A stretch of DNA of 64,000 bases, from NCBI GenBank assembly GCA_903903985.1, contig CAIVAT010000187.1:1-64000 (forward strand), written 5' to 3'. This document shows positions 1,780 to 49,841 of the stretch, one piece after another (the stretch's first letter is position 1; the number at the start of each line of letters is the position of its first letter). The translations under genes and the position numbers were made by a program. Below the pieces are notes generated by a model that saw only the letters and a program-made list of their open reading frames with translations, had not been told where the DNA came from and did no database searches. The DNA comes from an uncultured Bacteroidales bacterium. GTDB lineage: Bacteria; Bacteroidota; Bacteroidia; Bacteroidales; FEN-979.

Positions 1780-1905
1780 ATACACACCCACCGACAGCCG
1801 AAATGCAGTTTTCACTTGATGAAATTATTCGATATTTTACAAAGTCTGTAGGTTTGGCGATTACTATCAAAGTCAACCCACTTTTCGGTTGACAGCTCGT
1901 TAGCT
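1780..1905 (-). other. Integron attC-like site at 3' end of the HEPN gene cassette
   Basis: R''-like GTTAGCT (plus strand, 1899-1905) complementary to AGCTAAC at 2587-2593; inner hairpin GTCAACC(1872-1878)/GGTTGAC(1887-1893). Confidence 0.5.
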
Positions 1906-1926
1906 ATTGAGACAACAAACATGATA

Positions 1927-2571
1927 TCATATCTTTCTTGCTTTATTTTCCTTTTCCAGACCAATTTCTAAATAGGCAATTAGTGAGGAACAACAACCCC
2001 CAACAATTGGATTATCGAACATTACAGAGGATTCGAAAAACTTATTTTGTATCAGATTGAATAATTCATAAATTGTTTTCATCAAGACATTTACCATTCG
2101 AATTGTTGCAATTTTTATTGGATCAGCCCCTTCTTTAAGATTAAGATTGTAGTCAAAATGAGATATCAATCTATTTCTCCAATCTCTACAAAATTCTGAT
2201 TCGACAATAATCTGACAGACTTTTTTTTCAACAGTTTTTTTTAATCCTTTATCGCAAATAAATGTTGATAGGTTTTGAATAGTAATATTTTTTTTACCTG
2301 CACTTTTTGGTGGATCTGTGATACGACAAATTCCTAATAATATATTTTCCCACAGCATATTTTGTAATATCTTGAAAAAAAAGAATGGTGCTGTTTTATT
2401 CATGATTGCAATACGAGAATCACTTTCTGAATAAAGATATTTAAATTCGTTGAAGTTAAGACTGATGGAAATTACTCCATTGTATAATAAATTATACTGG
2501 GAGCCTAATTCCTTGCCTAGTTTATCGATATGCTCACTTTTAACCTGTTCTGCTGATTGATCTCTTCTCAT
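1927..2571 (-). CDS. HEPN-domain protein, AbiU2-like
   Basis: Segment CRDWRNRLISHFDYNL has the RX4-6H (RNxxxxH-type) HEPN signature in an alpha-helical ~214-aa protein. Confidence 0.5.
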   Translation of the reverse strand: MRRDQSAEQVKSEHIDKLGKELGSQYNLLYNGVISISLNFNEFKYLYSESDSRIAIMNKTAPFFFFKILQNMLWENILLGICRITDPPKSAGKKNITIQNLSTFICDKGLKKTVEKKVCQIIVESEFCRDWRNRLISHFDYNLNLKEGADPIKIATIRMVNVLMKTIYELFNLIQNKFFESSVMFDNPIVGGCCSSLIAYLEIGLEKENKARKI

Positions 2572-2586
2572 GAATTTTGGAATTAA

Positions 2587-2737
2587 AGCTAACGCTTCAC
2601 TTAAATTAGCAGCGTGGGCATTAGCAGATTTTAAATTCGAATTTCGTCCTCAATTTAGTAGCCAGAACCAGTTCGATTAACCACGATGCCCTGCATTGTT
2701 GGCTGACGGCTCGTTGCTGCTATACTTTGTTATAGGC
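2587..2737 (-). other. Integron attC-like site between HEPN and TPR cassettes
   Basis: Long imperfect palindrome: TAGCAGC(2607-2613)/GCTGCTA(2716-2722), GGGCAT(2616-2621)/ATGCCC(2686-2691); R''-like GTTATAGGC(2729-2737) complementary to GCCTATAAC(4639-4647) at the other cassette end. Confidence 0.6.
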
Positions 2738-2762
2738 AGCCATATTTTACAATCGACAATAT

Positions 2763-4595
2763 TTAATCATTTTTTTTCCTCATTGAAAAATAACCTATTA
2801 TTGCACCAATAGTTCCGGCAATAAGCATTGTTATTAACAGGATAGTTCCATTATTTTTACCTGCGTTCACTCCAGTCCCTGTGGAAATACACGTACCTAT
2901 TTCATTAATTAATGCAAAAACAATTCCGATAACAAATCCAATACCTGCACCACCTAATCCTCCTAATAAACCGACGCCAACTGAAGCAGCAATATTATCA
3001 TTGTCTGCATTTATTCGCACCTTTTCAAGATACGCAAGGTGTTTATTATTATCGTCGACAAATTGTTGAACAGTGGCTTTTAAATTTATTAATACACCAA
3101 GCAAAGTGTCATTATATTTTCTTTCTTTTTGTAAGAAGTCATAAACTTTGAAGTTACCACTGTGACTTTTCGTATTATACGCCATTGCATTGAGTGGGAA
3201 ATGCCATTGTGTTTCGCTGGTTATTCTTTTTGTGAATTCATCCACAAAGGATGGTTGTATTGCAATCATCCTTCCTCCTGATTTATAGTATTGCAATGTA
3301 TTAACAGTTCCTATCATGCTGAGAATTTCATTGAAACTTTTAGCTTGGTTTGGGTTTATTAATGGTTCGCAATAGTTCCAATTATTATCTTTTTCTAGTA
3401 AATCAATAGCTTTTTTGGAAGTGAGGTAAGTATTTTTATTTACCAGTCTTTCTATTATATCTAGATAGTCAGACGCATTACTTCCTAGGATTTGCTGTTG
3501 TCTGCATTGATGTAAAAGTTGACTTGCTTTCTCTGTGGATTCCTGTTGGAGCTTTTTAAGTAAAGATTGAATACATGGCTTTGGGCATAAATCAAGGTCT
3601 GATAAGGTTTTTAATGAATAGAAACGGTCAGTGTTAATGACCTTTTCAAGAACAATTGCTGCTTGGGTTTCATTGTTATTTGCCGCAAGGGCTTTTGCTT
3701 GTGTAAAACCAGCTTCAACCATTTGCGGCACAATAATAAAACCCTTACTTGCATAGTCAGTTGCTTCATTTAATTTGCCTTGTATATAGCAACTCCGTCC
3801 AGCAAAAAGATATGATTCAGCAGCTTGGAGTTTAATTGAGTCGTTTGTCGGTACTTGCCCTGATAGATTCTTATTTAAATCACCTGTTAAATAGTTTGTC
3901 GTTACACTTGCACCTGAATTTGTCTCCGCTACTGCATACTTTGCGGCTTTTTTAAAATATTCTTCCGCTTTGTCTAATGCCAAGTGGTTGGGAGAATACA
4001 TATATATCAGACCAATTCTGTGCAAAGCGAAAAAATCTGACGGCTCAATTTTTTCAGCTTTTAATAAATTAGTTAATGAATCTTCATAAAAATCACTATC
4101 AAATATTGCGTTCTTTAAAAACTTAATGCCTTGTTCAATGTAGTATTGTCGTTCCTTTTGAATGTCTGGTATCCTCAATAGAACCGCGATATTGCCCATA
4201 AGCAGATTGGTGATTCTCTGTTGTTCAATAAGAAGTGAAAGTTTCCAATCGAGCATTGAAGCCATGTCATTGAGTTCGCTTCTTAAACCTCCAATACCAT
4301 AGGATATTTCTTGCAAATTATCTGAAAGAAGTTCAAATCCATCTTCAAAAGTTCCACAAATTACATTTGTAGATTGTTGGATAGCAGCAACTTGTTCTCT
4401 TGTGGCTGTCTTAATAGTGTCACTAATTTCTTTTGTCTGGTATGATACGATTAAAGAGAAATCTTTGGTCTGTTTTCCACTCGAATTCATAACTGATTTG
4501 GTAACATCCTCAACATACGATTGGTTTTGGATGTGTTTACTCCACTGTGATAAATAATTTTCGTCAGAGAACCGATTGTAGTAAAATGTTGACAT
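2763..4595 (-). CDS. TPR-like repeat protein with C-terminal glycine-rich transmembrane segments
   Basis: 610 aa; helical repeats mid-protein; C-terminal GVGLLGGLGGAGIGFVIGIVFAL...ILLITMLIAGTIGAIIGYF. Confidence 0.55.
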   Translation of the reverse strand: MSTFYYNRFSDENYLSQWSKHIQNQSYVEDVTKSVMNSSGKQTKDFSLIVSYQTKEISDTIKTATREQVAAIQQSTNVICGTFEDGFELLSDNLQEISYGIGGLRSELNDMASMLDWKLSLLIEQQRITNLLMGNIAVLLRIPDIQKERQYYIEQGIKFLKNAIFDSDFYEDSLTNLLKAEKIEPSDFFALHRIGLIYMYSPNHLALDKAEEYFKKAAKYAVAETNSGASVTTNYLTGDLNKNLSGQVPTNDSIKLQAAESYLFAGRSCYIQGKLNEATDYASKGFIIVPQMVEAGFTQAKALAANNNETQAAIVLEKVINTDRFYSLKTLSDLDLCPKPCIQSLLKKLQQESTEKASQLLHQCRQQQILGSNASDYLDIIERLVNKNTYLTSKKAIDLLEKDNNWNYCEPLINPNQAKSFNEILSMIGTVNTLQYYKSGGRMIAIQPSFVDEFTKRITSETQWHFPLNAMAYNTKSHSGNFKVYDFLQKERKYNDTLLGVLINLKATVQQFVDDNNKHLAYLEKVRINADNDNIAASVGVGLLGGLGGAGIGFVIGIVFALINEIGTCISTGTGVNAGKNNGTILLITMLIAGTIGAIIGYFSMRKKND

Positions 4596-4825
4596 GTTAT
4601 TATTGTTTTATAATGTGGGCTGGGTCCGTCTTATGGTCGCCTATAACGATTGATAACTGCCATATTGCAGCTATTTTTAACTATAGATGCAACACATATT
4701 CAACGTCTAAGCAGTAAAGATAAATCTTAATCACAATATTTTATACACTCCTACTAATATTATTTTGAATTTTCTCTCCCAGACCGTCCATGTCAAACAA
4801 CTTTGACCATCCGAGGAAAAATAAA

Positions 4826-4849: not shown

Positions 4850-5590
4850 TCATAAACACCCTTCATCAGCGAATGAATAGTAAGTATCGTTTCCAACAAT
4901 GATGTGATCCAGCACCGCTATTTCAAGCAGTTTCCCGCCATCCACGATCTTTTTTGTGATCTTGGCATCTGCTTCCGATGGTGTCGGGGTCCCCGAAGGG
5001 TGATTATGACCCAGGATGATATTGCAGGCTTGATTATCCAGGGCAAACTTCCAGATCTTCTTCGGGTCCACCACCGTTCCGGAGATACCCCCTTCTGAAA
5101 TCCTCAGCTTCTTCATGATCTTGTTTGCCCGGTTCAGGGTCAGAATCCAGAATTCCTCATACGGCAGATCCCCGATCAGGGACTGAAAGATTTCAAAGGC
5201 ATCCCGCGATGAGCTGATCTTTGTCCTGCTGGCTGCTTCTGATTCATTCCTGCGTCTTGCCAGAGAGAACATGGCAACGATAGCGAGGGCACGGCATTCC
5301 CCGATCCCTTTGATCTTCTGCAATTCCGTGTAGCCGAACTTCCAAAGGTCTGCCAGGTTATTCCCGCTGGCCATCAGCAGGGTCTTTGCGATATCCAATG
5401 CGTTTTCCCCTGAAATCCCGCTGCCTATGACCAGACTCAGCAGTTCTGCATCAGACATGCTGGAGGTTCCCTTCATCAACAGCTTGTAACTCGGCAGATC
5501 ATCCTCGGCCCAGAGCTTCATGGGAAGACCATGTTTGTAATAGGTCAGCGGATCAAGAACGGTAGGTGTGTTTAAAAATGACTTTTTCAA
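4850..5590 (-). CDS. radC: RadC family protein (JAB/MPN domain)
   Basis: LGHNHPSGTPTPSEAD...VLDHIIVG motif; TTG start at 5590 directly after the leader RNA. Confidence 0.9.
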   Translation of the reverse strand: MKKSFLNTPTVLDPLTYYKHGLPMKLWAEDDLPSYKLLMKGTSSMSDAELLSLVIGSGISGENALDIAKTLLMASGNNLADLWKFGYTELQKIKGIGECRALAIVAMFSLARRRNESEAASRTKISSSRDAFEIFQSLIGDLPYEEFWILTLNRANKIMKKLRISEGGISGTVVDPKKIWKFALDNQACNIILGHNHPSGTPTPSEADAKITKKIVDGGKLLEIAVLDHIIVGNDTYYSFADEGCL

Positions 5591-5599
5591 TAGTTTGGC

Positions 5600-5830
5600 C
5601 CCTGCCCCGGGGACTTATTATGGCATCTAGCTCGCCGGTAAGAATTTGTGGTTTCCATACCGGATCGGTGAGAATAATGTCAAGAGTGTAGGTCAGATTC
5701 TTCTTTGAATCTGAATACATTCACATGCTCTTGACAGTTTCACAATACAATTGCCGTGAACCAGTTCAGATACGATACAGGTACCTTTATAAATTCTTAG
5801 CGGAGAGGTTCCTACAACCAGACCACCGGG
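5600..5830 (-). ncRNA. radC RNA motif-like structured 5' leader, copy B (upstream of radC)
   Basis: GTCAAGAG(5679-5686)/CTCTTGAC(5728-5735), TCAGATTC(5693-5700)/GAATCTGA(5707-5714), CCGGTA(5635-5640)/TACCGG(5658-5663). Confidence 0.8.
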
Positions 5831-5850
5831 GAGGTACGACCATAAAAAAT

Positions 5851-5875
5851 GGCAGACAGTCTGGGACTGCCTGCC
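5851..5875 (-). terminator. Hairpin terminator of the 5882..6052 gene
   Basis: GGCAGACAGTCtgGGACTGCCTGCC with T-run on minus strand. Confidence 0.65.
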
Positions 5876-5881
5876 TTGGTA

Positions 5882-6052
5882 TTAATTTTCAATTCTGAAT
5901 TGCTTCTGAAATTCTTTAAATTCCCATTCGTAAAGGGCCGATTGTTCTTCGGTCATTTCTTCAGCAAAACCTGGGTAGTAAATGTTTTCAATGTGTTGGA
6001 CAAACATCTCTTCGATGGATTGTCTGCGGGTTTCTTTCGTAAGTGCGGTCAT
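5882..6052 (-). CDS. Small hypothetical protein (MTALTKETRRQSIEEMF...)
   Basis: Start moved from 6205 to the Met at 6052 because the 5' part of the ORF is leader RNA. Confidence 0.5.
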   Translation of the reverse strand: MTALTKETRRQSIEEMFVQHIENIYYPGFAEEMTEEQSALYEWEFKEFQKQFRIEN

Positions 6053-6059
6053 GGCAGTG

Positions 6060-6265
6060 AGTTTTAGATTGTGAATACTTGAAAATTTCTGACCGCGAAG
6101 CGTTAAACCGGATCGATTGGATGATGTCCAGGGTGTTGGTCTGATTGACTTTTCAATCTGAATACACTGAAAGCGACCATTTCTTGTCGCCCTTGACAGT
6201 TCCAAGCTGCAGCGTTATACCAGCAGGAAGCCCTGTCGATATAGGTAGCTTAGTAAGGATTTCAA
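6060..6265 (-). ncRNA. radC RNA motif-like structured 5' leader, copy C
   Basis: GTCCAGGG(6126-6133)/CCCTTGAC(6190-6197, one mismatch), TCTGATTG(6140-6147)/CAATCTGA(6154-6161); extra GCGAC/GTCGC hairpin. Confidence 0.65.
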
Positions 6266-6665: not shown

Positions 6666-8174
6666 TTATGACTTGCCAAGGAACAGCATATCATGTGCAG
6701 GCTCACTGCTGCCCATACTCTGAAAGAACATCCAGTAGTAAAGATTATCTACGGCATCACTCAGGTCAGTGGCTTTCCACCTGGGCTGATCTGTCTTTCG
6801 TTCAGATGATTTGTCCTTCTTAAATTCAGAAGGCAGAACTGGCGCTGCATCCATTGACACAAACGTCTCCCGGGCATTGTTCATGTTTATCTTAAATGAT
6901 GGGGCGTTAGGATTATCATTAGACAAAAACTTATGCCAGAAGAGAAACTTATCCATGTGAGATATCTCATGCAATTCAGCACATAGCGTGACTGACCAGC
7001 CGGCACTGCTGAGTTGGTCCATTACATCATCGAAATATGTTTGCCTGCTGGCTGCATCATTGCGCCTGGTACCGTCACTGCCACCGTATAAGTTGATATG
7101 CTTATTCTTGTGGTATTGATAGTAGTCAATGAAATTGGTTACCAATACTTTGAGCGTTTCGTTTTCAACATAAAAGTTCTTTATGATTGGAAACTCATTT
7201 ACTGATCTGTGCCATTGGCTTATGATCATGCAGTTTTGAGTAGAACCGAAATCAAATGAACCGTACAGATATTCATCCGGCAGGCAATCTGCATCTCCCC
7301 TGCAGTCAAGGCCGCCCTGCTCCCCCAGGTCATGACTGATCGCGTCATAAAACGAATAGTTGTATGCATCATAATAGCAGTGTGCATTTTCATTGAGGGA
7401 TGGATAAAAACCGTTGATATTTCTTTTCCGCCTTTGGTTATCGACTTCTATTTCATAAACCATTTGGGGAAGTACCCGGTTGAGGTCACGGAAATATCTT
7501 GAACCAAGAATGAATTCATTTTCCCGGGCACTGGCTTCAAGGAATAGGAATTCCTTCGGGAATTCGGTCATCAGCTCTTCATAATCAAAAACCCAGTCAC
7601 CTGCAGGGGTCAATGGTTGTGATCCCAGGAACATGGTCCCATGGTGAAAACGGACATGGCCAAAGCGGTCATTGTTGCCGCGATTAGCAGGCAATACATC
7701 GCTGTCAATGGCTGATTTTTTCAGCAGGGTGGACTCGTCGAACACCATGTAATCATAGGATCCGCTGCGGGCCATTTCCGGCCGGTCGAAAGAATTATAT
7801 TCAACGACAAAGCCATTGAAGAAATGAATGCAATTTGTGTAATCAAGCGGTGGCTGAAACGGTTCAAGCCAATTGAACTTTTTTGGCGCTTTCATCCCGA
7901 CAAAATAGTGGATACCTCGGTAGAGACCACGGCGTTCCCAGTGATCGATGATCGGTGGGAGTGATTTTGTTCTTATGTGGAAATAGGTAAGGCCATTGAG
8001 GGAAATTTTTCCACGCGGCATGTTTTTAAGGCAATCTATCACCTGGTCGGCAATGATGGTAGTCTTGCCGACGCCTCTTCCTCCGATAAACATTTTATGT
8101 GGCCGGCTGGAGAGTTTTATAATGGTTTGTGGTTCATTATAAAAAGGCGCTTCAGTAATTTGCGGTACAATCAT
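6666..8174 (-). CDS. Phage large terminase-like ATPase/nuclease
   Basis: Walker A GGRGVGKTT, Walker B-like YMVFDES, nuclease-like YGSFDFGSTQN. Confidence 0.8.
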   Translation of the reverse strand: MIVPQITEAPFYNEPQTIIKLSSRPHKMFIGGRGVGKTTIIADQVIDCLKNMPRGKISLNGLTYFHIRTKSLPPIIDHWERRGLYRGIHYFVGMKAPKKFNWLEPFQPPLDYTNCIHFFNGFVVEYNSFDRPEMARSGSYDYMVFDESTLLKKSAIDSDVLPANRGNNDRFGHVRFHHGTMFLGSQPLTPAGDWVFDYEELMTEFPKEFLFLEASARENEFILGSRYFRDLNRVLPQMVYEIEVDNQRRKRNINGFYPSLNENAHCYYDAYNYSFYDAISHDLGEQGGLDCRGDADCLPDEYLYGSFDFGSTQNCMIISQWHRSVNEFPIIKNFYVENETLKVLVTNFIDYYQYHKNKHINLYGGSDGTRRNDAASRQTYFDDVMDQLSSAGWSVTLCAELHEISHMDKFLFWHKFLSNDNPNAPSFKINMNNARETFVSMDAAPVLPSEFKKDKSSERKTDQPRWKATDLSDAVDNLYYWMFFQSMGSSEPAHDMLFLGKS

Positions 8175-9069: not shown

Positions 9070-9643
9070 AGTCGCTGGTATTATTGAGTTCGTTTACTAT
9101 CCAATTTTTATGAAATTCCGCAATCTCTTTAGAGTTGCAGATCACCCCGGCTTCAATGCGAGGGTTACGCGTATAGTTTGCCGAAGAGACAATACTGATC
9201 CCCCATGTTTCATTCTCGATGACTGTGACCTTGGCATGGCACTTGGCAGCTTTAATATCGGTGCTTATCTGTTTGAGAAATTGAAGTTCCGCGGGTTTGT
9301 GAATTCCATTGCGGTAATCGAAGATTCCGGATAGTTTTGTAATAAGGCCTGAGGAAACGAAAGCATAGAGTTGGCGAATGGCGAACTCCGATATCGCCCA
9401 GGTTGTAAAGTAAACTTCCGCCGGGCCTGTTTGATTGAGAAAGTGAAACAGCAGATCATGTGTGGACCATTCTCCCATGGAAGCATAATGCTTTGATTCA
9501 CCCGGGGCGATGATGCCGATAACATCATCAATTTTCTGACCGACTTTCCCGATTGCCAAATGGGTTATGCCCATCACCGAGGCGGATGCCGGGGTGTGGG
9601 TTTCCTTTTGATTTGTCAGTTCATTTACTTTGAAAAGCGACAT
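9053..9643 (-). CDS. PLD-like (HKD-type) domain protein
   Basis: CHAKVTVIENETWGISIVSSANYTRNPRIEAGVI; likely start MSLFKV with TGATG overlap at 9643. Confidence 0.6.
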   Translation of the reverse strand: MSLFKVNELTNQKETHTPASASVMGITHLAIGKVGQKIDDVIGIIAPGESKHYASMGEWSTHDLLFHFLNQTGPAEVYFTTWAISEFAIRQLYAFVSSGLITKLSGIFDYRNGIHKPAELQFLKQISTDIKAAKCHAKVTVIENETWGISIVSSANYTRNPRIEAGVICNSKEIAEFHKNWIVNELNNTSDFERNK

Positions 9644-10314
9644 CAGGGTAAAAGTTGCAGGATTTGTGAGAGCTGGGCTTCCCATTTTGAAAGGCAGCCG
9701 GTATTGTATATGATTGAAGCAGCCTTTTCAGGCAGTCCAATCTGTTTTTTGTAATAGGAGATCTTTGATCGAATGTTCGAGCGTCGTCTGAGAAGTTCAG
9801 CTTCTGTTAATCCGGTCAATGATATGTCGGAAACCACGGCCTTCATTTCCTGCTCCGGAGGTAATACTCCATGAATCTTGAAATGTTCATGCCGCTCATA
9901 TGCTTTTGTGATTTCATCAGAAAGATCAAGTATCTGCAGGGCATTTAACCTGCGCTGGTCTTCAGGCACAAGCTCCAGCGTAGCATGGAGATGGTCTCGG
10001 ATTTTCAGTTTTGATTTTATCTGGTCGAAAAGCAACTGATCATCCCTGGATTGTGAATTGGAATTGCTAACCTGTTGATTTGCAATAGCGGCAGTTTCGG
10101 GCGGCATAAAGGGAGTACTCCTTTTTGGTATTGCGGGAGATACATGCAGCAGCTTTCCCAGTTCATAGATCAGGTTTTGTGTTGATGTCTCCGACTGATC
10201 GCTGCGCTCAAAGATCCGTTTCATGTTTTGGCTCTGCCCAAAACGAGAATAGAGCTGCACCCCTATTGCATAATCACGCTCGGAATTAAGCCAGGAGTTA
10301 ATTTCATTGTTCAT
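9643..10314 (-). CDS. Phage-operon hypothetical protein (paralogue of the truncated ORF at 22437)
   Basis: 223 aa; DYAIGVQLYSRFG...LIYELGKLL and LHATLELVPEDQRRLNALQILDLSDEI. Confidence 0.55.
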   Translation of the reverse strand: MNNEINSWLNSERDYAIGVQLYSRFGQSQNMKRIFERSDQSETSTQNLIYELGKLLHVSPAIPKRSTPFMPPETAAIANQQVSNSNSQSRDDQLLFDQIKSKLKIRDHLHATLELVPEDQRRLNALQILDLSDEITKAYERHEHFKIHGVLPPEQEMKAVVSDISLTGLTEAELLRRRSNIRSKISYYKKQIGLPEKAASIIYNTGCLSKWEAQLSQILQLLP

Positions 10315-11014
10315 TGAGTAGAAGTTTTTGGGTTCTTAAGAATTCGTGCCAATCGGGAGCTTTGCGGTCGGGCGCGAAGGAGAATGACTTCTCATGTACC
10401 CGATATTTCATAAGGATGTCCTCCCTATTATATATGGTGTAGCCTGCCAGAAGGAATTTCACCCACAGGGCATAGTCTTCCGCCAGGGTAGATGGAGTGG
10501 CTCCATAGCCACCAACTTTCGTGATAGCCTCCTTGCGGAAGGCTACGCCCGGGTGATTGACAAACCAATGCCCGTTCATCCAACATGCTTTCTTCCTGGT
10601 AACTTCAGATGGATGGTTACTGTACCAATCCATTGTTTTGTTGAACAGGTGTATTTGCACCCCGCAAATATGCCTGTCAGGATGGTCCGTAAAATACTGG
10701 TCATGGGTTTTGAGCAGTTTTTTTTTCGCAATATCGTCGGCATCCATGCGAACGATCAAATCGCCATGGCAATGCTGAAGGCCGAAGTCCAGCGCTGCAG
10801 CGATTCCTTCGTTTTCGTTTTTCCGCACAATGTTGACGCAGCAGTCACGCTGAGTAAGGCCGTACAAATATTTAGTGAGCGGTCCTCTGGGGTTGTTGTC
10901 ATCAACAATGATGAACCTAAAATCAGGATGATCCTGGTTGATGATTGATTCAACAGCCTCCTGAACCCATTCAACCGGAGTTGAGAATACCGGCATTAAT
11001 ACATTGATCGTCAT
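10304..11014 (-). CDS. Family 2 glycosyltransferase
   Basis: INVLMPVFSTPVEWVQEAVESIINQ...FIIVDDNN...VRMDADDI. Confidence 0.9.
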   Translation of the reverse strand: MTINVLMPVFSTPVEWVQEAVESIINQDHPDFRFIIVDDNNPRGPLTKYLYGLTQRDCCVNIVRKNENEGIAAALDFGLQHCHGDLIVRMDADDIAKKKLLKTHDQYFTDHPDRHICGVQIHLFNKTMDWYSNHPSEVTRKKACWMNGHWFVNHPGVAFRKEAITKVGGYGATPSTLAEDYALWVKFLLAGYTIYNREDILMKYRVHEKSFSFAPDRKAPDWHEFLRTQKLLLNEQ

Positions 11015-12441
11015 GATTTACTGAAATATATGGGAATTAATTTATCATCATGCCAATGGACTTTGAAGAAGGCATTTTTGTACTGGTTGCCCGGGAAGAG
11101 GTTGGGCTTGAATTTTGTCAGTTTGCAGATCACCGGAAAACTCAGTTGATCCTGGTACGTCCATTTGATAATTTCCCACCACCATTTAGCCATCACCTCC
11201 CGTAGTGTTGCTGAATGGATTCTGCGAACCATAACGCCACAGGCAAACAGTCCCCCATGCCTGGGGTAAATGGTGCTGTAAAATTCAATCTGGCCATCAA
11301 TGTTCTGGCTTTGGTATTTTACCAAAGGTTTTGATTCTATTGCTTCTTCATAAATGCAATCACGATCAGGATGCGTGTATAGCGCCATATCCTGATCACC
11401 CAATGAGTCAAGGCAATGTATGACGAAATCGGGAGAAGTGATCTCAATGGAGCCATCAACGAAAATCAAAATGTCATACCGGTCGAGCGTGTATGCTTCC
11501 CAAGGGAAGAGTTTGAAGAACTTTGCCCGAAGCCTGGCCGGGAGGTCCGTGGTTGGATACTGAACCGGGATGATTTTCCAGCGCTGTCCGTCGGATTGTT
11601 CATTGGATGGGGTTGCATGTAAAACGTCCAGTGAGTCTGAGATACAAATGAAATCTGCATCGACAGACTGTTTAGGAACCGGATACAAGCATGCATAACC
11701 TCCAAAGATGGTAGTGTAAACAGCAACTTTTCTGTACGTCGGCTTTTCGTTGAACACATCGAGCCTGTCCATGATGAGGGATTTCCACTGGGCACCATAG
11801 AATTTCTCCATTCCCCTGCCAAGTTCATTTTTTGCGGTTGCTTCATAATCTCGCAGCGTGCCATGGGCATTGATTGTCTGCTGGCCGATGTGGTAAAAGA
11901 ATGATTTATCGTCACAGTACTGCCTGAGACCGGCCGCTTGCATCTTCAGGGACCAGTCGAATTCTACGCCATAACCTTTTGTAAAGGATTCTTCAAAGAA
12001 TCCGATTTTCTCAAACACATCGCGACGGATTACCGGAGCGGTGAACTCAATGCATTTCACCTCACGGATCCCTGGGGAGCCGTTATTTTTACACTGCTTC
12101 ATCCAGCAGTTATACGATGGCGTGATCATCGAATAAGGATGAAGGTCCATCAGATCATGAATCCGTTTAATGGAATTCTGAGATATTTCGATGTCAGAAT
12201 TCATGAGCCAGAACGCCTGGTAATATCCTGCATCATTTTTCATGATCTCCCTGATTGCCCTATTCCAATTTGCAGTGAATCCCAGATTGGTTTCAAAGCG
12301 AATGACCCTTTCCTTGGGAAGCAGGGTAAGCATGTTGATGTCTGAACCGTTGTCAATGACAATGGCATCGGGTACTGATTCACAAAGCCTGAGCGTAAGC
12401 TCTGGCGTGTTGTAATGCAGTATAAGTTTGGCAATGTTCAT
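11011..12441 (-). CDS. Two-domain glycosyltransferase: GT2-like N-terminus plus TOD1/MUCI70 (DUF616)-like C-terminus
   Basis: N-term AIVIDNGSD...LMNSDIEIS; C-term YDILIFVDGSIEI...GLFACGVMVRR...WTYQDQLSFPV. Confidence 0.75.
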   Translation of the reverse strand: MNIAKLILHYNTPELTLRLCESVPDAIVIDNGSDINMLTLLPKERVIRFETNLGFTANWNRAIREIMKNDAGYYQAFWLMNSDIEISQNSIKRIHDLMDLHPYSMITPSYNCWMKQCKNNGSPGIREVKCIEFTAPVIRRDVFEKIGFFEESFTKGYGVEFDWSLKMQAAGLRQYCDDKSFFYHIGQQTINAHGTLRDYEATAKNELGRGMEKFYGAQWKSLIMDRLDVFNEKPTYRKVAVYTTIFGGYACLYPVPKQSVDADFICISDSLDVLHATPSNEQSDGQRWKIIPVQYPTTDLPARLRAKFFKLFPWEAYTLDRYDILIFVDGSIEITSPDFVIHCLDSLGDQDMALYTHPDRDCIYEEAIESKPLVKYQSQNIDGQIEFYSTIYPRHGGLFACGVMVRRIHSATLREVMAKWWWEIIKWTYQDQLSFPVICKLTKFKPNLFPGNQYKNAFFKVHWHDDKLIPIYFSKS

Positions 12442-27367: not shown

Positions 27368-30300
27368 TCAATCCAGCAGGCAGCGAACTGAAAATCCATT
27401 GCTCCTGCCTGAATGATAATCGGAGACCGATCCTACCGCACTGTTAAGGCCGTGCGATCTGGCCCGGGTTGCTCCCTCCTGGTCGGATGTCCAGAAAATC
27501 GCTGCAGAGAAATCCGGCGGACTGAACGACCCCACCTGGTTCTGATAGATGACCCCGCCGGGCAAACCATTGAAGTTTCCGGCACCCTGGGCTTTCAGGG
27601 AATCACCCGCGATGGATTGGCCTCCATAATAACCGAACAGAACCATCCATTCCGCATCGGTAGGCACATGCCAGCCCGGCGGGCACAATCCCTGGGCTCC
27701 AGGCGAAGGATCATGGCGCATCAGTTCATCCCATTGATAAAGTGCTCCGTACAGGGTGCAGTTTGCCTCAAGGTTATTGAGGCAGTATTTGGTATCCTCA
27801 CAATTATCAACCTGGGGATCGGAAAAATTCCGCTTGATCCCATAATCCAGGTTTTTCGAAAACCAGCACTGGGTGCCGATCAAAACTGTCGGGTAACTTT
27901 TATTGTTGTCACGGACATCGTGAATGGGATTGCCGCAATTCACCGGAGCTGAAGCGCGTGTATCGATGACCATGCTATCGGTGGCGATACAATTCCCGGC
28001 TGTCGGATAGGTGTATTTGATGGTATGACTGCCAGGCCCGGCCAGCAGAGGATCGAAAATGCCTGTAGATGAATCGACGCCTGCCCCGGAATAATATCCC
28101 CCGGGACCCAGCGGAAGTCCGCCATGAAGTTTGAATGGTTTCGCATTAGTGGCAGTGATAAGGTCGCGGGGACAATCGTAGGTGACCATCGGCCCTCCAC
28201 CGGATGAAACGATCAGCGTACTTGAAACCGGTGTTCCGGCACAGGTGATATTGGAGATCATCGTGCACGTGACTATATCGCCGACTGCAGGCTGATAGGT
28301 ATAAGTAAAATTATTGCTTCCAACATTAACGCCGTTTACCTGCCACTGATACACAGGGTTCGCCCCCCCGAATTGTGCCACGGCGGTATAGATCACGGTT
28401 ACGCCGGCGCAAACCGGTCCGGACGGATTTGCCTCAATGCTGACACTGACCGGGAAAACAGGATTGACACTCATTGCCACTTTGTTCGACGTGGCCAAAC
28501 TTCCTGTTGAACAGGTCGCATTCGACTCCAGCATGCAATACACGGAATCTCCATCTGAGGGTGGATATTTGAAAACCGGACTATTGTCTCCAACCTGGAT
28601 TCCGTTCACCTTCCATTGATAAGTTGGAACAGGGCCGCCATTGATGGGGGTAGCGGTAAACAAGACAGAATCGCCGGCGCAAACGGTTGTCGGGGTATTA
28701 GCAATGATGGAAACGCCAACAGGAATGCCCAAAACAATCATATTGACCGGTATGGATGTAACAGGATTGGAAGTGCACAGGTTCAAATCAGAGGTCATTT
28801 TGCACGTTACAGCATCATTGTTGACAGGAAAATAAGAATAGGTGGTCGTTGTGGCTCCTGCAACATCCGTTCCATTCACCTGCCATTGGTAAATGGGTGC
28901 AGGTCCGCCATAAACTGGAGTTGCGTTGTAGGTCACCAGGGTATTCACACAGACCATGTTGTCGGATGCGATGATGAGGACATCTGCCGGAAAGTATGCG
29001 GCTACGATCATCACAATGGGTTCTGAAAATGCAGAAAATCCCAAAACGCATGATTCACTAGATACAACCTTACATTGTACAATGTCATTGTTGTTTGGAA
29101 CGTAGCTGTATGTTGCATTGGTTGCTCCAAACAAATTAGTACCGTTGAGGATCCACTGATAAGAAGGAACAGCACCTCCGTTTGTGGCTGTTGCCGTATA
29201 GGTAACGGAGGTACTCAGGCAAGCGGGGTTTGAGGAACAGACAACCGACACCGCGACAGGCTGTATGGTACTGACAATCATGGTAATGGGATTGGATATC
29301 ACCGGTACGGGCTCACATTCATAGCCCGATGTTATCTGGCAGGTAACAACCTGGCCCGAGGTGGGGATATAGGTATATGTGCTTTCGGTCCCCACTTTGT
29401 ATCCATCTACCATCCACTGGTATTCAGGATCTAATCCTCCATTCACCGCTGTAGAGGTAAAGGTGACTACCTGCCCGATGCATGTTGGGTTTGCCGATGC
29501 TGAAATGGAAATACTTACGGGAAAGCCTGAACTTACATGCATCACGATCGTGTTTGAACTGACCGGGTTAACAACGATACAGGAAATACTTGATTTCAAA
29601 GTACAGGTTACCTGGTCGCCATCGGAAGGAATGTATGTATAGGCAGCATTGCTTGCTCCGGGTATAACAATTCCATTTACCATCCATTGATAATCGGGCG
29701 TTGATCCCGGATTAACCGCAGCAGATGTAAAAGTAACATGGGTATTCGAGCATACGGTATTGATCGGGGTGGAAATGGTTAGCTGGGTCGTTTGCGGGGG
29801 AAGGACGGACATGGCAATTGAATTCGAAGGTGCCGGGTTGTTGATTGAACATGGAATATCGGAGGTCAGGGTGCATTCCACAACATCGCCATTTACCGGA
29901 TTGTAGATTAATTGAGACATATTTCCACCCACGACAGCTCCGTTTACCTTCCACTGGTAAACGGGAAGGGTGCCTTCGTTCACAGGAAGCGCGGTAAAAA
30001 CTGCTGGTGTGCCTATGCAGGCTGGATTTGCCGAGCATATGATGGATACACTGACAAGCAGAACCGGGGAAAAACTCATGACATCGGCATTGGAAAGCGC
30101 CGGATTCCCGGTTGAACAATCCACATTTGAATATAGCTGGCATTGAATGACATCGCCGCTGTTTGGCACGTATGAAAAAACCGGATTATTTCCTCCGACA
30201 AAAAAACCATTGACCAGCCACTGGTAGTATGGGCTGGTTCCTCCATTAACAGGATTCGCGGTATATACCACAGTATCTCCCTGGCAAGGCGGTATCAATG

Positions 30301-33300
30301 ACCTTGAAATCGTGATGCTGACAGGTGAACTTGGTATAATATGCAGGGTAACCGAATTGGAAATGACGGTATCTTCCTCAATGCAGGCATAATTTGACAT
30401 CAATGCGCATGACACCACATCGCCATCCATTGGGGAATAAGTAAACAGGTGGTTGTTGGTGCCGGTGTTGCTCCCATTGACTTTCCATTGAAAAGCCGGT
30501 GAAGGTCCACCATTCGTTGGTGTTGCGTTGAAAGTAACCATGCCCTCGCACACCGTGTCGTTTGGTGCTGCGATATACACGCTCACAGGCAACAAGGGGC
30601 TGACTCCCATGGCAACCTTGTTGGATAAAGCCATGTTATCCAGAACACAAGTTGCATTGGAAGTAACGATACAGGAAACCGAATCCCCATTCAACGGGGT
30701 ATATGAAAACTGAGATGCATTTCCAACCTGGTCAATACCGTTTACTTTCCATAGAAATTGTGGTGCATTTCCTCCATTTTCCGCAACGGCTGTGAATGTT
30801 ACCCGGGTTCCCTGGCAAACAGGATTTGCAGAAGGGGTGATGGATGCGCTTACAGTCCTGAGTGGGCTGACGTACATGGTAATTTCAGGTGAGTAAGAAT
30901 TATTCCCGGTTCTGCAATCGGCATTTGAATTAATTCTGCATTTGATCTTATCGCCATTTGCCGGAATATAATTGATGATGGGGCCCGAACCCCATTCCGG
31001 TTTTTGGGCGCCATTCAAATACCAGCGATACAGCGGACCGGTACCCGGATTTACCGGCATGGCTGCAAGGGTAACAGATTGCCCTACACAGCAGGTATCG
31101 GTGGATGCCGTAATGCTGACGGAGACCGGTGCAAGTGGAATGATATGCATCCTGATGGCGTTGGAGGTAGCCGTTTTAGGGAGTGGGACACAAAAGAGAT
31201 TCGATGTTATCGTGCACGTTATCAGTTCATTGTCATTGGGGTAATAATCAAAATATGAAAGGATTGTGTTGCCTCCATTGTTGATCCCATTTACTTTCCA
31301 TTGAAAACGTGGTTGGGAACCGCCATTCGTGGCGGTCGCCAGGTATCTGACCTGGGTTCCGGCACAGCGAATCGTATCCCCTTCGAGGGTGATTGAAACT
31401 CCGACAGTCATCACGGCAGCCGATTCAATCATGACAACTGTATTTGATAATGCAGGGTTTCCGTTGATACAGGATTGGTTTGAGGACAGCCGGCATTGTA
31501 TGGCATCACCCGAGGCAGGGGAATAGAGAAAAGTTGAATTGGTGGCTCCGGGCCAATCAGCACCGTTTACGATCCAATGATAGGTTGGGGCGGGCCCTCC
31601 GTTCTCCGGTGCGGCTGTATAGGTCACCTGGCTTCCCTGGCAAAAGGGATTATCAGAGGGTTCAATGGCTACACTCACGGGTTGTTCGGCATTGACTACA
31701 AAGGCCACGGAATTGGAGACAGCCGGATTCAAGCTGGCACACGATGCACTCGAGGTCATGGTAACCGTGACCACATCGCCATTGTAAGGCATATACGAAT
31801 AGGTTATTCCATTTTCCCCGGGAACCAGTTGCCCATTCTTACGCCAGCGATAAATTGGCGTCGGTCCTCCATTGACCGGAGTGGCTGTAAGCGTGACCGG
31901 GATTCCCAGGCACACCGGATTGGATGAGGCTTCGAGGCTGACACTGAAAACCGGCGAACTGGATACCACCATATTGATAGGGTCTGAAATTACTTCCAGC
32001 GGGGAAGCACATACCAGGCTGGTTTTCAATTTACAGGTGATGGCGTCTGCGTTGGTTGGTATATAGATCAGTACAGAATTATTGCTTCCCTTGACAATAT
32101 TATTTACCCGCCATTCATATTCCGGTGCCACCCCCCCGTTTGCCGGTGTGGCAGTATAGCGCACGACTTTCCCCTGGCAAACAGGGTTTTCGGATGCCGA
32201 CACCTGGACTCCAAGCGGAAGGGGTGTGGAAGAAGTCATGATGATGGCGGCAGATTCCGTTGTTCCTGTGATACAGCTTGCATGGGAAGTCATGACACAG
32301 GTCACCACATCATTATTCTGGGGGGCATAGGTATAGGAAGAATTTGTGGCTCCTGGTTTATCAGCCCCGTTTACCTTCCACTGATATAATGGATTAAGGC
32401 CGCCATTTGTTATTGCAGAAGTGAAAATCACCGACGTTCCAGGGCAAAAAGGATTGGTCGCAGTGGAAATGATAATGCTGTCGGTCGCATAAGGCGTGGT
32501 TCCGATAATGATTTGGTTGGAGACAGCCGGATTCCCACTCGCGCAGGCTGCATTGGAGGTTAAATAGCAGGTTACGGCATCTCCGTTAGCGGGGATATAG
32601 GGATATGTTGGCCCGGTACTGACACCGGTGCCATTCACACCGTTGACTTTCCATTGGTAGGCAGGGGCAGTCCCGCCGTTGGTCGGGGTTGTAAAAAGCG
32701 TCACCGGATCACCCGGGCATACGGGATTGTCTGAAGCCCTGATCAAAACACTTACGGGAGTCCCATCGTTCCTGTACATAAGAATGGCATTGGATGTGGC
32801 AGGCTTTGGAGAAGCGCATGCAAGGGACGAAGTAACCTGGCACGTAATAAAATCACCGTCCAACGGGGCATATGCATGTGTTGCACCAGTTCCTGAAGGC
32901 AAGCCGTTTATCAGCCATTGATAAACCGGATTGGTTCCCCCGTTTGACGGAGTTGCCGTATATAAAACGTTTGCCCCCTGGCAAAATGGGTTTGCGGAGG
33001 CACTGATGCTGATCCCTGCGGGCAACGACAAGCCGACCACCATTACAATGGTGTTTGAGGTTACTTCGGGGCTGACAAGGCACATCATATTTGAAGTAAC
33101 AGTGCACGATATCTGATCGCCGTCCATCGGTGTAAATTGCCAGACCGGGCTGTTGGGGCCGGTATGGTTACCATTCAGCTTCCACTTGTAAATGGGAGCT
33201 GAACCGCCGTTGATTGCCGTCGCCGTGTAGGTAACCAGTGTCCCGGTACATACGGTGGTTGCTGAAGCAGAAATGGTTACCGATGGGATAACATTTGGAT

Positions 33301-35794
33301 TGACGGTTTGTATAATGGAATCAGAAGATACAGGATTGTTGATCGCGCATGAAAATGAGGAAGTGAGCATGCAATGGATCGTATCTTTATTTGCAGGAAC
33401 ATAAGTAAAGGTGGCGCTGCTGGTACCTGCATTGCTGCAATTGACCTTCCATTGGTAACCAGAGGACGCCCCACCGGTTGAAGTTGACGCAACATAGGTC
33501 ACCGGTATGCCCATGCATGAAGGATTGTTCAATGTATTGATGGTGACGCTCACCGGAAGGTTCGGATTGACAGTCATCACGATCGTATTGGAAGTGGCCG
33601 GGTTACCGGAGGCACAACTCAAACCTGAATTGACGACGCATTTAAAAGTATTTCCATTTGTCGGGGGATAGTTGAATGTTGTAAGGTTGGCACCGCTTTG
33701 CACCAGAACACCATTCACAAGCCATTCATAAAAAGGTGAAGCACCTCCATTCAGGCATGTTGCAGTAAAAGTGACCATCTGCCCCATACAGGAGGGATTA
33801 GCGCTTGCGGTGATGGAGACACTCACAGGCAGGGCTGCCGCAACATTCATCGTGATGGCATTGGAAACAGCAGAACTGTTGATCGCACAATTCAAACTCG
33901 ACAACAGGGTACAGGTAATCACCTCGCCATTGACGGGAGTGTAATTGAACGTTGCGCTGTTTGAACCGGATGGGGTCCCGTTTACCTTCCATTGATAGGC
34001 AGGAGTCGGGCCACCATTGACGGGAATTGCTGTAAAAACGACGGAACTGCCTGTACATATTGGATTTGTAGAAACAGCGATGGCAACACTTACCGGCAAA
34101 CCACTGCTGATGCTGATGGTTATCTCATTGGAGAGAACAGGGATACCCTGGCTGCACAAACTATTGGAAGTCATCCGGCAAACAATCTTGTCATTGTTGG
34201 CTGGTGCGTAAGTATATATCGCATTGGTCGCTCCCGCAACCTCAGAGCCGTTCACTTTCCATTGGAATGAAGGAGTTGTTCCTCCATTCAATGGGTTTGC
34301 ATTAAACTGTATCGGCGTTCCCTCACAGGTATAATAGGAAGAGGCAGTAATGGAAACGCTTGGGGCCATCGTACCGCTCACAATCATGGTGATCGTGTTT
34401 GAGGTCGACGGGTTCCCTGTTGCACACGATAAACTTGAAGTAAGCAAACATTTAACCTGGTCGCCGTTTGATGGCTGATAGGTGTATGCAGGATTATCGG
34501 TACCAACAGTTAAATTATTTACGATCCACTCATAATGGGGAGTTGCTCCCCCATTGCCGGAATTCGCAGTGAGTGTCACCTGGCTTCCATCGCACAATGG
34601 ATTCGCTGAGGCAGAAATGTCCACACTTACCGCAGTATGTTGCAATACCGCCATGATGATGGCATTGGAAGGTGCGGGATTCCCGGTTTTACATACCGCA
34701 TTGGAGTTCAGGATACAGGTCACTACATCGTAATTCACCGGGGAATAGGTCATGACCGGATCATTTCCACCGGTGATTGTGCCATTTATTTTCCAGGTGT
34801 AAACAGGTGCCGGGCCACCATTGACGGCTGTTGTGCTGAATGTAACCATGTTTCCTGAGCAAACCGGGTTGGAAGACGCGGCAATGGAAAGGCCCACAGG
34901 TTGATTCGGGCTGACAGTCATGATCATTGGTACTGAAATTGCCGGGTTTCCCGACGTACAGGTCATACTTGATGTAACCCTGCAGGTGATCACATCCCCG
35001 TTCACGGGGATATAGCTGTAAGTACTATTGGTTGCTGAAGGGATATCAACACCATTGCGCTTCCATTGGTATAATGGGAGGTTACCTCCGTTTGACGGGG
35101 AGGCCGTAAGTGTAACCATATCTCCCAGGCATGATGGATTGGCCGATGACGATATTGCCACTCCAACAGGAAAATTTGATGTAACCGACATGACAACCGG
35201 GGCCGAGGATGCCGGGTTCCCCGAGGGGCATGCCAGGTTGGAGATGACCTGGCAGTGCACAATATCATTGTTGATAGGCGGATAACTGAAGATGGATGCA
35301 GAAACTCCGACATCCTGCCCGTTTACGAACCAAATAAATGTCGGTGATGATCCTCCATTGACCGCAGTTGCAGTGAAGGTTACCTGGGTGCCCGCGCAAA
35401 CCGATGTGGCTGAAGGGGTAATTGAGATAGAAACCGGTAAGGATGGCTGAACCGTTACAGTTAAATCTACAGAAAAAGTGACTCCCAAACCATCAACATA
35501 ACTGACATGCACTGTTTGAGCCCCCAGGGCATTCCAGGTCACAGTTACCGAATTATCTGTTGAAGTGCCTCCGTCCGTGATTGTACCTCCTGTAACAACC
35601 CAAAAATAGTTGTTCATAAATTGTTCGGTGGTATAAACATAACCACTGGTACCAATGCAGGGAGTTATCGATCCGGAAATGGTTGGGGTTGTAAAGGGTG
35701 CATCATGATGGGTTCCATCCATACCGGCCTGTCCAAACAAAATGTAAGGAAGGAGGACGAAGAAAAACAGTATGGTTTTAAAACCTGCTTTCAT
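27368..35794 (-). CDS. Giant secreted protein: ~27 related ~80-aa Ig/PKD-like repeats plus C-terminal FISUMP-type domain
   Basis: Repeats VSVSI-xxSxNPxCxGxxVTFTA...NGG..PxYQWKVNG...VTCxLTSNxxC; C-term VLIGTQCWFSKNLDYG...GFSVRCLLD. Confidence 0.85.
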   Translation of the reverse strand: MKAGFKTILFFFVLLPYILFGQAGMDGTHHDAPFTTPTISGSITPCIGTSGYVYTTEQFMNNYFWVVTGGTITDGGTSTDNSVTVTWNALGAQTVHVSYVDGLGVTFSVDLTVTVQPSLPVSISITPSATSVCAGTQVTFTATAVNGGSSPTFIWFVNGQDVGVSASIFSYPPINNDIVHCQVISNLACPSGNPASSAPVVMSVTSNFPVGVAISSSANPSCLGDMVTLTASPSNGGNLPLYQWKRNGVDIPSATNSTYSYIPVNGDVITCRVTSSMTCTSGNPAISVPMIMTVSPNQPVGLSIAASSNPVCSGNMVTFSTTAVNGGPAPVYTWKINGTITGGNDPVMTYSPVNYDVVTCILNSNAVCKTGNPAPSNAIIMAVLQHTAVSVDISASANPLCDGSQVTLTANSGNGGATPHYEWIVNNLTVGTDNPAYTYQPSNGDQVKCLLTSSLSCATGNPSTSNTITMIVSGTMAPSVSITASSYYTCEGTPIQFNANPLNGGTTPSFQWKVNGSEVAGATNAIYTYAPANNDKIVCRMTSNSLCSQGIPVLSNEITISISSGLPVSVAIAVSTNPICTGSSVVFTAIPVNGGPTPAYQWKVNGTPSGSNSATFNYTPVNGEVITCTLLSSLNCAINSSAVSNAITMNVAAALPVSVSITASANPSCMGQMVTFTATCLNGGASPFYEWLVNGVLVQSGANLTTFNYPPTNGNTFKCVVNSGLSCASGNPATSNTIVMTVNPNLPVSVTINTLNNPSCMGIPVTYVASTSTGGASSGYQWKVNCSNAGTSSATFTYVPANKDTIHCMLTSSFSCAINNPVSSDSIIQTVNPNVIPSVTISASATTVCTGTLVTYTATAINGGSAPIYKWKLNGNHTGPNSPVWQFTPMDGDQISCTVTSNMMCLVSPEVTSNTIVMVVGLSLPAGISISASANPFCQGANVLYTATPSNGGTNPVYQWLINGLPSGTGATHAYAPLDGDFITCQVTSSLACASPKPATSNAILMYRNDGTPVSVLIRASDNPVCPGDPVTLFTTPTNGGTAPAYQWKVNGVNGTGVSTGPTYPYIPANGDAVTCYLTSNAACASGNPAVSNQIIIGTTPYATDSIIISTATNPFCPGTSVIFTSAITNGGLNPLYQWKVNGADKPGATNSSYTYAPQNNDVVTCVMTSHASCITGTTESAAIIMTSSTPLPLGVQVSASENPVCQGKVVRYTATPANGGVAPEYEWRVNNIVKGSNNSVLIYIPTNADAITCKLKTSLVCASPLEVISDPINMVVSSSPVFSVSLEASSNPVCLGIPVTLTATPVNGGPTPIYRWRKNGQLVPGENGITYSYMPYNGDVVTVTMTSSASCASLNPAVSNSVAFVVNAEQPVSVAIEPSDNPFCQGSQVTYTAAPENGGPAPTYHWIVNGADWPGATNSTFLYSPASGDAIQCRLSSNQSCINGNPALSNTVVMIESAAVMTVGVSITLEGDTIRCAGTQVRYLATATNGGSQPRFQWKVNGINNGGNTILSYFDYYPNDNELITCTITSNLFCVPLPKTATSNAIRMHIIPLAPVSVSITASTDTCCVGQSVTLAAMPVNPGTGPLYRWYLNGAQKPEWGSGPIINYIPANGDKIKCRINSNADCRTGNNSYSPEITMYVSPLRTVSASITPSANPVCQGTRVTFTAVAENGGNAPQFLWKVNGIDQVGNASQFSYTPLNGDSVSCIVTSNATCVLDNMALSNKVAMGVSPLLPVSVYIAAPNDTVCEGMVTFNATPTNGGPSPAFQWKVNGSNTGTNNHLFTYSPMDGDVVSCALMSNYACIEEDTVISNSVTLHIIPSSPVSITISRSLIPPCQGDTVVYTANPVNGGTSPYYQWLVNGFFVGGNNPVFSYVPNSGDVIQCQLYSNVDCSTGNPALSNADVMSFSPVLLVSVSIICSANPACIGTPAVFTALPVNEGTLPVYQWKVNGAVVGGNMSQLIYNPVNGDVVECTLTSDIPCSINNPAPSNSIAMSVLPPQTTQLTISTPINTVCSNTHVTFTSAAVNPGSTPDYQWMVNGIVIPGASNAAYTYIPSDGDQVTCTLKSSISCIVVNPVSSNTIVMHVSSGFPVSISISASANPTCIGQVVTFTSTAVNGGLDPEYQWMVDGYKVGTESTYTYIPTSGQVVTCQITSGYECEPVPVISNPITMIVSTIQPVAVSVVCSSNPACLSTSVTYTATATNGGAVPSYQWILNGTNLFGATNATYSYVPNNNDIVQCKVVSSESCVLGFSAFSEPIVMIVAAYFPADVLIIASDNMVCVNTLVTYNATPVYGGPAPIYQWQVNGTDVAGATTTTYSYFPVNNDAVTCKMTSDLNLCTSNPVTSIPVNMIVLGIPVGVSIIANTPTTVCAGDSVLFTATPINGGPVPTYQWKVNGIQVGDNSPVFKYPPSDGDSVYCMLESNATCSTGSLATSNKVAMSVNPVFPVSVSIEANPSGPVCAGVTVIYTAVAQFGGANPVYQWQVNGVNVGSNNFTYTYQPAVGDIVTCTMISNITCAGTPVSSTLIVSSGGGPMVTYDCPRDLITATNAKPFKLHGGLPLGPGGYYSGAGVDSSTGIFDPLLAGPGSHTIKYTYPTAGNCIATDSMVIDTRASAPVNCGNPIHDVRDNNKSYPTVLIGTQCWFSKNLDYGIKRNFSDPQVDNCEDTKYCLNNLEANCTLYGALYQWDELMRHDPSPGAQGLCPPGWHVPTDAEWMVLFGYYGGQSIAGDSLKAQGAGNFNGLPGGVIYQNQVGSFSPPDFSAAIFWTSDQEGATRARSHGLNSAVGSVSDYHSGRSNGFSVRCLLD

Positions 35795-48467: not shown

Positions 48468-49841
48468 GATATTGTCCCAAACTTAGTTGAAATATAGGTT
48501 AAAAAGGAAGGACCAGACATAGCTGATCCTCCACTAAGGTTCCGTAAGTTTGAGTTGCGAAACAAAAAACATGGAACCAATGGATAAAAGTAATGAATTA
48601 AACCGTAAAACGCTTTCGTGGTTAAAAGAACAATCGATTGATTTACGGGTTGGTATTTTGCAGAACTATTTAAGTGTCTGTCAGATAATGATAAACGAGC
48701 TCCTTGAAGAGGAAGTGATTGATAAAGCCGGTGCCCGATACAGTCACCAGAAGCCAGAGAATGGCCGGTGGAGCCGTTGGGGCTATAACCCTGGCAGCGT
48801 GAAAATCGGAGATCAGAAAGTAAGGGTCGAGGTTCCACGGCTATTTGATAATTTGGATGAGAAAAACACTCCGCTCCAACGTTACGAAGAGATGAAAGAA
48901 CTCCCGGAACCGACAGATCAGTTGCTTAAAGGGGTATTGCTGGGCCTTAGCGTACGAGATTATGGGCAGGTGGTTGATTCGCTGAACGAAGGATTTGGGC
49001 TGTCTAAAAGTTCCGTCTCCCGTTCCTTTGTTGAAAGAACCGAAGAAAAACTGAAGGAGTTTGAGTCCAGGCCAATTGCGCATCACAAGATACTGGCCCT
49101 TTTCATTGATGGAAAATACCTTTCCAAAGAGCAGATAATTATCTGCCTTGGTGTTACAGAAAACGGAGACAAGATCCCGCTTTGTTTTACCCAGGCTGCT
49201 ACGGAAAATTCTCAACCGATCAAGGATATGCTGGAAAGATTGAAGGAACGTGGTTTGGATTATTCCAGTGGGTTGCTTTGTGTGATCGATGGTAGTAAAG
49301 GAATACGAAAAGCGGTTGAAGATTGTTTTGGTGAGATAGCAATCATTCAGCGCTGCCAGTGGCATAAACAAGAGAACATTTTGAAGTATTTGCCGGATAA
49401 ATATCATGAGTCCGTTAAAAGACAATATCAACATGCCGTAAACCAAGATAAATATGATGACGCCCGAGCTGAACTTGGGCAACTCAAGTCCGATCTGAAA
49501 TCACTGAATATGGCCGCTGCCCGTTCATTGGACGAAGCCATGGAAGAGATCCTGACCTTGCACAAACTCGGCATTAACACACTTTTTGCCCATTCATTTG
49601 CAACAACCAATTGCATCGAAAACCTTAACTCCCAACTACGTAAATATGTTGGCCGAGTGAAAAACTGGACGTTATCAAACGAGCGATACCGCTGGGTTGC
49701 AGCTGCTTTATTGGAGGTTGAACGCAAAATGCGAAAAGTTAATAACTTTGATAAACTGGATATGATGAAAAATGCAGTCATAAAAGAAGTAAAACGTAGA
49801 ACCTTAGCCAATCAAATTTCAACTAAATAATGGACAACCTC
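48468..49841 (+). mobile_element. IS256-family insertion sequence with 8-bp target duplication CTGTTTTA
   Basis: Ends GATATTGTCCCAAACTTAGTTGAAATAT and inverted GAGGTTGTCCATTATTTAGTTGAAATTT; CTGTTTTA at 48460-48467 and 49842-49849. Confidence 0.88.
48571..49830 (+). CDS. IS256-family (mutator-type) transposase
   Basis: LALFIDGKYL...LCVIDGSKGIRKAVEDCFGEIAIIQRCQWHKQENIL...TTNCIENLNSQLRKY. Confidence 0.92.
   Translation: MEPMDKSNELNRKTLSWLKEQSIDLRVGILQNYLSVCQIMINELLEEEVIDKAGARYSHQKPENGRWSRWGYNPGSVKIGDQKVRVEVPRLFDNLDEKNTPLQRYEEMKELPEPTDQLLKGVLLGLSVRDYGQVVDSLNEGFGLSKSSVSRSFVERTEEKLKEFESRPIAHHKILALFIDGKYLSKEQIIICLGVTENGDKIPLCFTQAATENSQPIKDMLERLKERGLDYSSGLLCVIDGSKGIRKAVEDCFGEIAIIQRCQWHKQENILKYLPDKYHESVKRQYQHAVNQDKYDDARAELGQLKSDLKSLNMAAARSLDEAMEEILTLHKLGINTLFAHSFATTNCIENLNSQLRKYVGRVKNWTLSNERYRWVAAALLEVERKMRKVNNFDKLDMMKNAVIKEVKRRTLANQISTK

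Follow-up and report, generated by a model that had tools for sequence, protein, structure and literature searches.

The window, as we call the whole 64-kb stretch of DNA analysed, carries on its minus strand, in this order, a radC-like phage gene (4850-5590; Pfam RadC, E = 9e-41), a gene for a TPR-repeat protein of 610 aa (2763-4595), a gene for a HEPN protein of the AbiU2 type of 214 aa (1927-2571), an orphan gene for a protein of 233 aa (1059-1760) and a small ssb-like phage gene with an acidic tail (426-794), which had no Pfam match and is named by appearance only. The TPR protein has a weak match to TPR_11 and C-terminal hydrophobic, membrane-like segments, and homologues occur in five other genomes of the order. 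The HEPN protein matches Pfam HEPN_AbiU2 above the cut-off (E = 2.1e-14) and contains an R-x5-H motif (RNRLISH); its relatives within the order are only 25-31% identical. The orphan protein had no Pfam match and bears HEMLH, a HExxH metallopeptidase-like motif. GC content is 0.28-0.38 within the cassette run described below versus 0.43-0.51 in the flanks, and this, like the gene content and the common orientation, is as described in the original prediction. Homologues of the TPR and HEPN proteins fall into disjoint sets of other genomes, so the two genes are not co-inherited. Searches for the TPR gene in phage, plasmid and IMG/VR collections, for the HEPN gene in genome contigs and for the third gene (1059-1760) in viral contigs gave no matches.

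Cassette ends and attC sites

Integrons are bacterial gene-capture systems, and a cluster of attC sites lacking an integron-integrase is known as a CALIN. The original prediction read the run at 1780-4700 as cassettes of such a cluster, on the rule that the first bases of a cassette are complementary to the R'' box at its own far end. The R' box opening the TPR cassette, GTTATAGGC (4639-4647, minus strand), is the complement of GCCTATAAC (2729-2737) at 9/9 positions, and that opening the HEPN cassette, CGTTAGCT (2587-2594, minus strand), is the complement of AGCTAACG (1898-1905) at 8/8, all four located exactly as quoted; the cassettes extend over about 2589-4647 and 1786-2594 and hold one gene each. 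Among mismatched pairs, 1.3-1.9% match as well as the TPR cassette and 8-12% as well as the HEPN cassette, so the complementary ends alone are moderate evidence. Across 13 cassettes, the window's two included, own ends match at 6.15 of 7 variable positions versus 3.19 of 7 for mismatched pairs, a value reached in 0 of 200,000 permutations (P < 5e-6), with the caveat that these single intervals were chosen visually, each start being paired with the neighbouring end, a choice that may somewhat favour good pairs. They include examples with 10/10 agreement on G009:C492 and G003:C95, where the bases after GTT at the cassette start are complementary to those before AAC at the cassette end.

The TPR and HEPN cassettes each end in an attC site. 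Only two attC sites exist, so the third gene is at most a candidate cassette: by eye, GTGTATTGGTAA at its start looks like the beginning of a cassette; downstream of the gene, neither an attC nor a complementary R'' was found, and it was rejected as a full cassette. Agreement with the GTTRRRY core had been put at a single mismatch; GTTATAG departs from it at two positions. A near-palindrome formed by the joined flanks of the two-cassette run, TTATCAAT-CGT-ATTGGTAA, was seen by eye and left unused, its junction being uncertain.

The attC sites were identified with covariance models built without the window, solely from other contigs and from genomes of the order. The motif GAGCCGTCAGCC, in the site after the TPR gene, occurs in exact form once more in the 5.2-Mb genome, on contig C119, and a looser pattern, AGCYGTCAGCCN{2,6}AATGC, matched in 6 of 295 genomes of the order (reversed control, 0). 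At the pattern loci we read six complete attC sites, in which R''/R' and L''/L' come with unpaired bases and a long loop, and set aside three additional matches that were not attC. A model from these six sites (R1) matched the window at 1779-1908 (31.9 bits, E = 5e-7) and 2588-2722 (20.5 bits, E = 0.001), and also picked up 32 sites in relatives. A second model (R2), trained on that set of 32 and again excluding the window, scored the same two places of the 64-kb window higher (1780-1908, 42.1 bits, E = 3e-10; 2588-2722, 33.3 bits, E = 1.6e-7), and its next match there had E = 1.6, leaving exactly two attC sites, both on the same strand. An R1 match at 5841-5969 (E = 0.009) was gone with R2, and a scan of the window at Rfam gathering thresholds gave no match, although attC may not be among the Rfam families.

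attC1, at the end of the TPR cassette (2588-2737, minus strand; model match 2588-2722), retains the 5' half, L'' and the central loop of the family, and its L' box has decayed. A family-like R'' would be AGCAGCAAC, directly before GAGCCGTCAGCC; the outer R'' that is reciprocal to the cassette start, GCCTATAAC, lies 16 nt outside the family position. Sister sites of attC1 occur at L046:3337-3471 and on G405:C4 (80.6% identical over 108 bp). The region 2587-2737, predicted to be a long imperfect palindrome with two internal stems, does fold with two stems (TAGCAGC/GCTGCTA and GGGCAT/ATGCCC), at an energy no better than that of shuffled sequence (z about -0.6). attC2, at the end of the HEPN cassette (1780-1908, minus strand), has the R'' box AGCTAAC and a degenerate R' box, GTGTATT; the R''/R' and L''/L' pairs, unpaired bases and central loop present in the family are mostly present in it. 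With no L' box in attC1 and a non-canonical R' in attC2, the window's own sites may be inactive. Both are degenerate members of an attC family found in this bacterial family and its order, Bacteroidales, and the suggestion that they form a new, divergent attC class was abandoned because both have sister sites in that family.

The source genome has further attC sites on C119, C102 and C118, with a weaker one on C90. Within the genus, G009:C492 has eight attC sites on one strand; the 28-kb array there (L090, L091; at least eight attC sites) consists mostly of genes for secreted or unknown proteins in one orientation.

No complete integron (intI, attI and cassettes together) was found, and the window has no intI. 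The source genome (G000) has no integrase over the TIGR02249 cut-off, and none of its TIGR02249 matches listed is on contig C187; as the MAG is 87% complete, the organism may still encode one. The G009 genome likewise has no integron integrase over the cut-off. A full-length IntI, aligned along its length with PDB 2A3V, is encoded in the same genus at G003:C64:6258-7229 (L009), beside heterodisulfide-reductase-like genes and with no attC or attI-like element nearby. A 71-aa C-terminal piece of a tyrosine recombinase is encoded at G000:C119:11923-12102, where it heads a cassette whose strong attC lies at the end of the contig. It was not counted as an integron integrase, being only 71 aa long and because most relatives have C-terminal matches of similar strength to recombinases in which the middle part of the IntI profile is missing. 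The CALIN-type reading of the original prediction, cassettes without a local integrase, is supported by the window-free attC models, the array sites of the same genus on G009:C492 and the reciprocity rule. The findings named in that prediction as able to refute it, no attC structure score and strict co-inheritance of the three genes in all relatives, did not turn up: both sites score as attC, and TPR and HEPN homologues belong to different genomes.

A prophage cargo slot

The cassette run occupies a cargo slot between the radC-like and ssb-like genes, a setting that the original prediction overlooked together with the conserved element ahead of the run. PHROG matches identify terminase, head maturation protease and primase, with the phage genes in order, and the terminase large subunit (6666-8174, minus strand; E = 1.4e-7) has counterparts of 79-91% identity on five genome contigs and on one contig of IMG/VR. 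The window is also collinear with IMG/VR contig 3300022555_003155 (L027), and together these phage gene matches and this collinearity place the run in a prophage. The radC-like gene is 89-90% identical at the nucleotide level in L027 and L208, and orthologues of the ssb-like gene (93% and 88%, respectively) stand at the far side of different cargo. In L027, the cargo between the two genes is a type I restriction-modification locus, named from translations. Other radC relatives have restriction-type genes (L039, L040), another cargo (L042) or almost nothing (L043, L045) in this place. G003:C95 belongs to the same phage type and runs parallel to the window past radC and on into the element (85.8% identity as far as window position 4661), after which come cassettes with attC sites of 128 and 122 bits and then the common flank again.

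A second slot is found in a second prophage of the same genome, on C167, which is 99.5% identical to IMG/VR contig 3300022555_003155; both carry a cassette run adjoining glycosyltransferase genes. On C167 (L141), about four cassettes with reciprocal ends lie at approximately 9288-12015 of the oriented strand (2141-4860 of L027), between a phage structural gene and the glycosyltransferase genes.

Several other features of the window were recorded. Promoter-leader-like repeats of 60-70 bp, 70-82% alike, occur at 48-297, 5583-5825 and 6106-6251, in phage intergenic regions adjoining the radC-like gene and near the window start, and such stretches recur beside the same genes in sister phages. Two giant adjoining proteins of about 2800-3050 aa with many similar repeats are encoded at 27368-35794 and 35978-45136, and a Mutator-type transposase-like ORF, named from its translation only, is inserted at 48550-49830 near an outer-membrane usher-like gene.

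A conserved attI-like element ahead of the first cassette

Directly ahead of the TPR cassette lies an element of about 59 bp (4642-4700, minus strand) that comprises CTATAGTTAAAAATAGC, a palindromic hairpin (CTGC..GCAG) and ATCAATC, and ends at the GTT of the first cassette. The stretch common to the window and C167 upstream of the first cassette has the same build: CTATAGTTAAAAATAGC, a palindrome and 8-14 nt ending at GTT. A model of the element from four other loci, with the window left out (R3), matched window 4642-4700 with 45.5 bits (E = 1.7e-6 genome-wide). R3 also matched C167, G003:C95 twice (radC slot and capsid slot), the capsid slot of L208, G414 and, weakly, G417; further copies were found in G416, G002 and G405, and G003 has three copies in all. 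The element thus recurs at two fixed slots in related prophages, the radC slot and the capsid/glycosyltransferase junction. Weak R3 matches in other families of the order (E = 0.003-0.09) have no significant attC beside them.

Conservation is lost at the GTT. Ten copies anchored there agree upstream, and downstream the information content is 0.46 versus 0.43 expected, a random level save for A at +1 and +8. At cassette starts across the loci, A recurs not only in GTTA: position +8 after GTT is an A in every one of the ten element junctions and, by eye, in most attC junctions. The first cassette is joined directly at the GTT of the element in the window, C167, G003:C95, G003:C25 and G405:C4, that is, at the same GTT in several independent loci, in two slots and in more than one genus. 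Eight of about 12 element copies have attC sites or a matching R'' downstream, three stand ahead of cargo with no recognizable attC (the capsid slots of G003:C95 and L208, and G414) and one is cut off by the end of its contig. None of the copies was found to have an integron integrase next to it, and the element is therefore assigned by its form, as a candidate attI that may serve as a phage-borne docking site.

Interpretation and comparison with known systems

We interpret 1780-4647 as a two-cassette CALIN in a prophage that sits at an attI-like site of the phage and relies on an integrase acting in trans (probability roughly 0.7). Under this scheme, the phage family carries the attI-like element at the radC slot and at the capsid/glycosyltransferase junction, a chromosomal integron of the host would supply the integrase in trans, and that integrase would recombine folded attC sites with the element, as IntI does with attI, joining the first cassette at the GTT of the element. 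The cassettes would then persist in the phage as accessory genes, and one of them probably encodes an RNase of abortive infection. A role in abortive infection is plausible for the HEPN protein because of its AbiU2 domain and R-x5-H motif. The data themselves establish the identity of the attC sites, the reciprocal cassette ends, the prophage slot, the recurrence of the element and the end of conservation at GTT; a genuine attI in the element, action of IntI in trans and a defensive cargo are inferred. More tentative, and in our judgement somewhat short of even odds, is the broader proposal that a family of Bacteroidales temperate phages possesses fixed attI-type docking sites and no integron integrase of its own, with host integron integrases in trans loading and swapping the cassettes, so that the phage acts as a mobile cassette platform drawing on host integrons.

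The main rival, which we regard as unlikely, holds that the cassettes entered at a secondary, attG-type site and that the 59-bp element is a transcription leader of the cargo slot, kept for expression, with cassettes landing downstream of it owing to the GTT there. The element stands upstream of genes, where a leader would be, and because cargo lacking attC follows it in places, it could act as promoter or leader for this slot; moreover, IntI is known to insert cassettes at many non-classical attG sites, as cited in two papers (PMC12444791, PMC12901181). Random secondary sites would, however, scatter, whereas the joins fall at the same GTT across independent loci, two slots and more than one genus, and the palindrome-plus-GTT build is that of a known attI. 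Considerably less probable is an exchange of ordinary accessory genes by homologous recombination through the radC and ssb-like flanks, the cassettes having formed earlier in a bacterial integron and arrived as a block. Such an exchange would suit the unrelated cargo that the slot holds in sister phages and flanks that are 82-93% alike, and the repeats near radC and the window start could support recombination, but it gives no account of cassettes that follow the GTT of the element both here and in the second slot of other prophages. Chance complementarity of the ends of three ordinary genes unrelated to integrons, compatible with the attC1 fold energy and the HEPN end match when each is taken alone, is already refuted by the two independent R2 covariance-model matches, placed precisely at the two gene ends, and by the 13-cassette end-rule permutation; sister sites in arrays within the genus also speak against it.

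Phage-borne integron parts, including CALINs, have been published (Qi et al. 2023; PMC9892861), among them the Shewanella prophage M16-3, in which a CALIN starts with its own attI, AAACGCGCATGCGCACTAATAAAATGTT, composed of a palindrome, about 12 nt and GTT, and which also holds a complete integron with IntI (PMC9892861). Both CALINs in phages and a single prophage CALIN headed by an attI of its own are therefore on record (PMC9892861); new here is the conserved element of about 59 bp ahead of the first cassette, recurring at two fixed places in related prophages. None of the papers searched was found to describe attI-like sites that recur without an integrase at two fixed slots in a phage family of Bacteroidales. 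If the preferred reading, a CALIN docked at a phage-borne attI-like site, is true, fixed attI-like sites in integrase-less phages would reveal a route by which cassettes get out of sedentary integrons and spread with phages, and phages would become users of the host integrase. The locus offers a concrete pair of site and IntI and ties integron cassettes to phage defence-gene slots.

Like other CALINs, the run has two attC sites, separated by about 0.7 kb, single-gene cassettes in a shared orientation and no integrase nearby. It differs in that a prophage cargo slot houses it, with a recurring attI-like element ahead of the cassettes, and in the decayed L' of one attC. Like M16-3, it combines phage-borne attC cassettes with an attI-type sequence of palindrome, about 12 nt and GTT heading the CALIN; unlike M16-3, the element here has no IntI beside it and occupies two fixed slots in a Bacteroidales phage family. 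As with the attI of chromosomal integrons, the conserved sequence ends at a GTT directly after which cassettes are joined, whereas no copy of the candidate element found here adjoins intI. The HEPN protein shares the Pfam domain and R-x5-H motif of AbiU2 HEPN proteins, yet it has only distant relatives within the order. Finally, the locus is similar to phage accessory (moron) and defence slots, in which cargo, including restriction-modification genes, is exchanged between two conserved phage genes, with the difference that the cargo here bears integron recombination sites.
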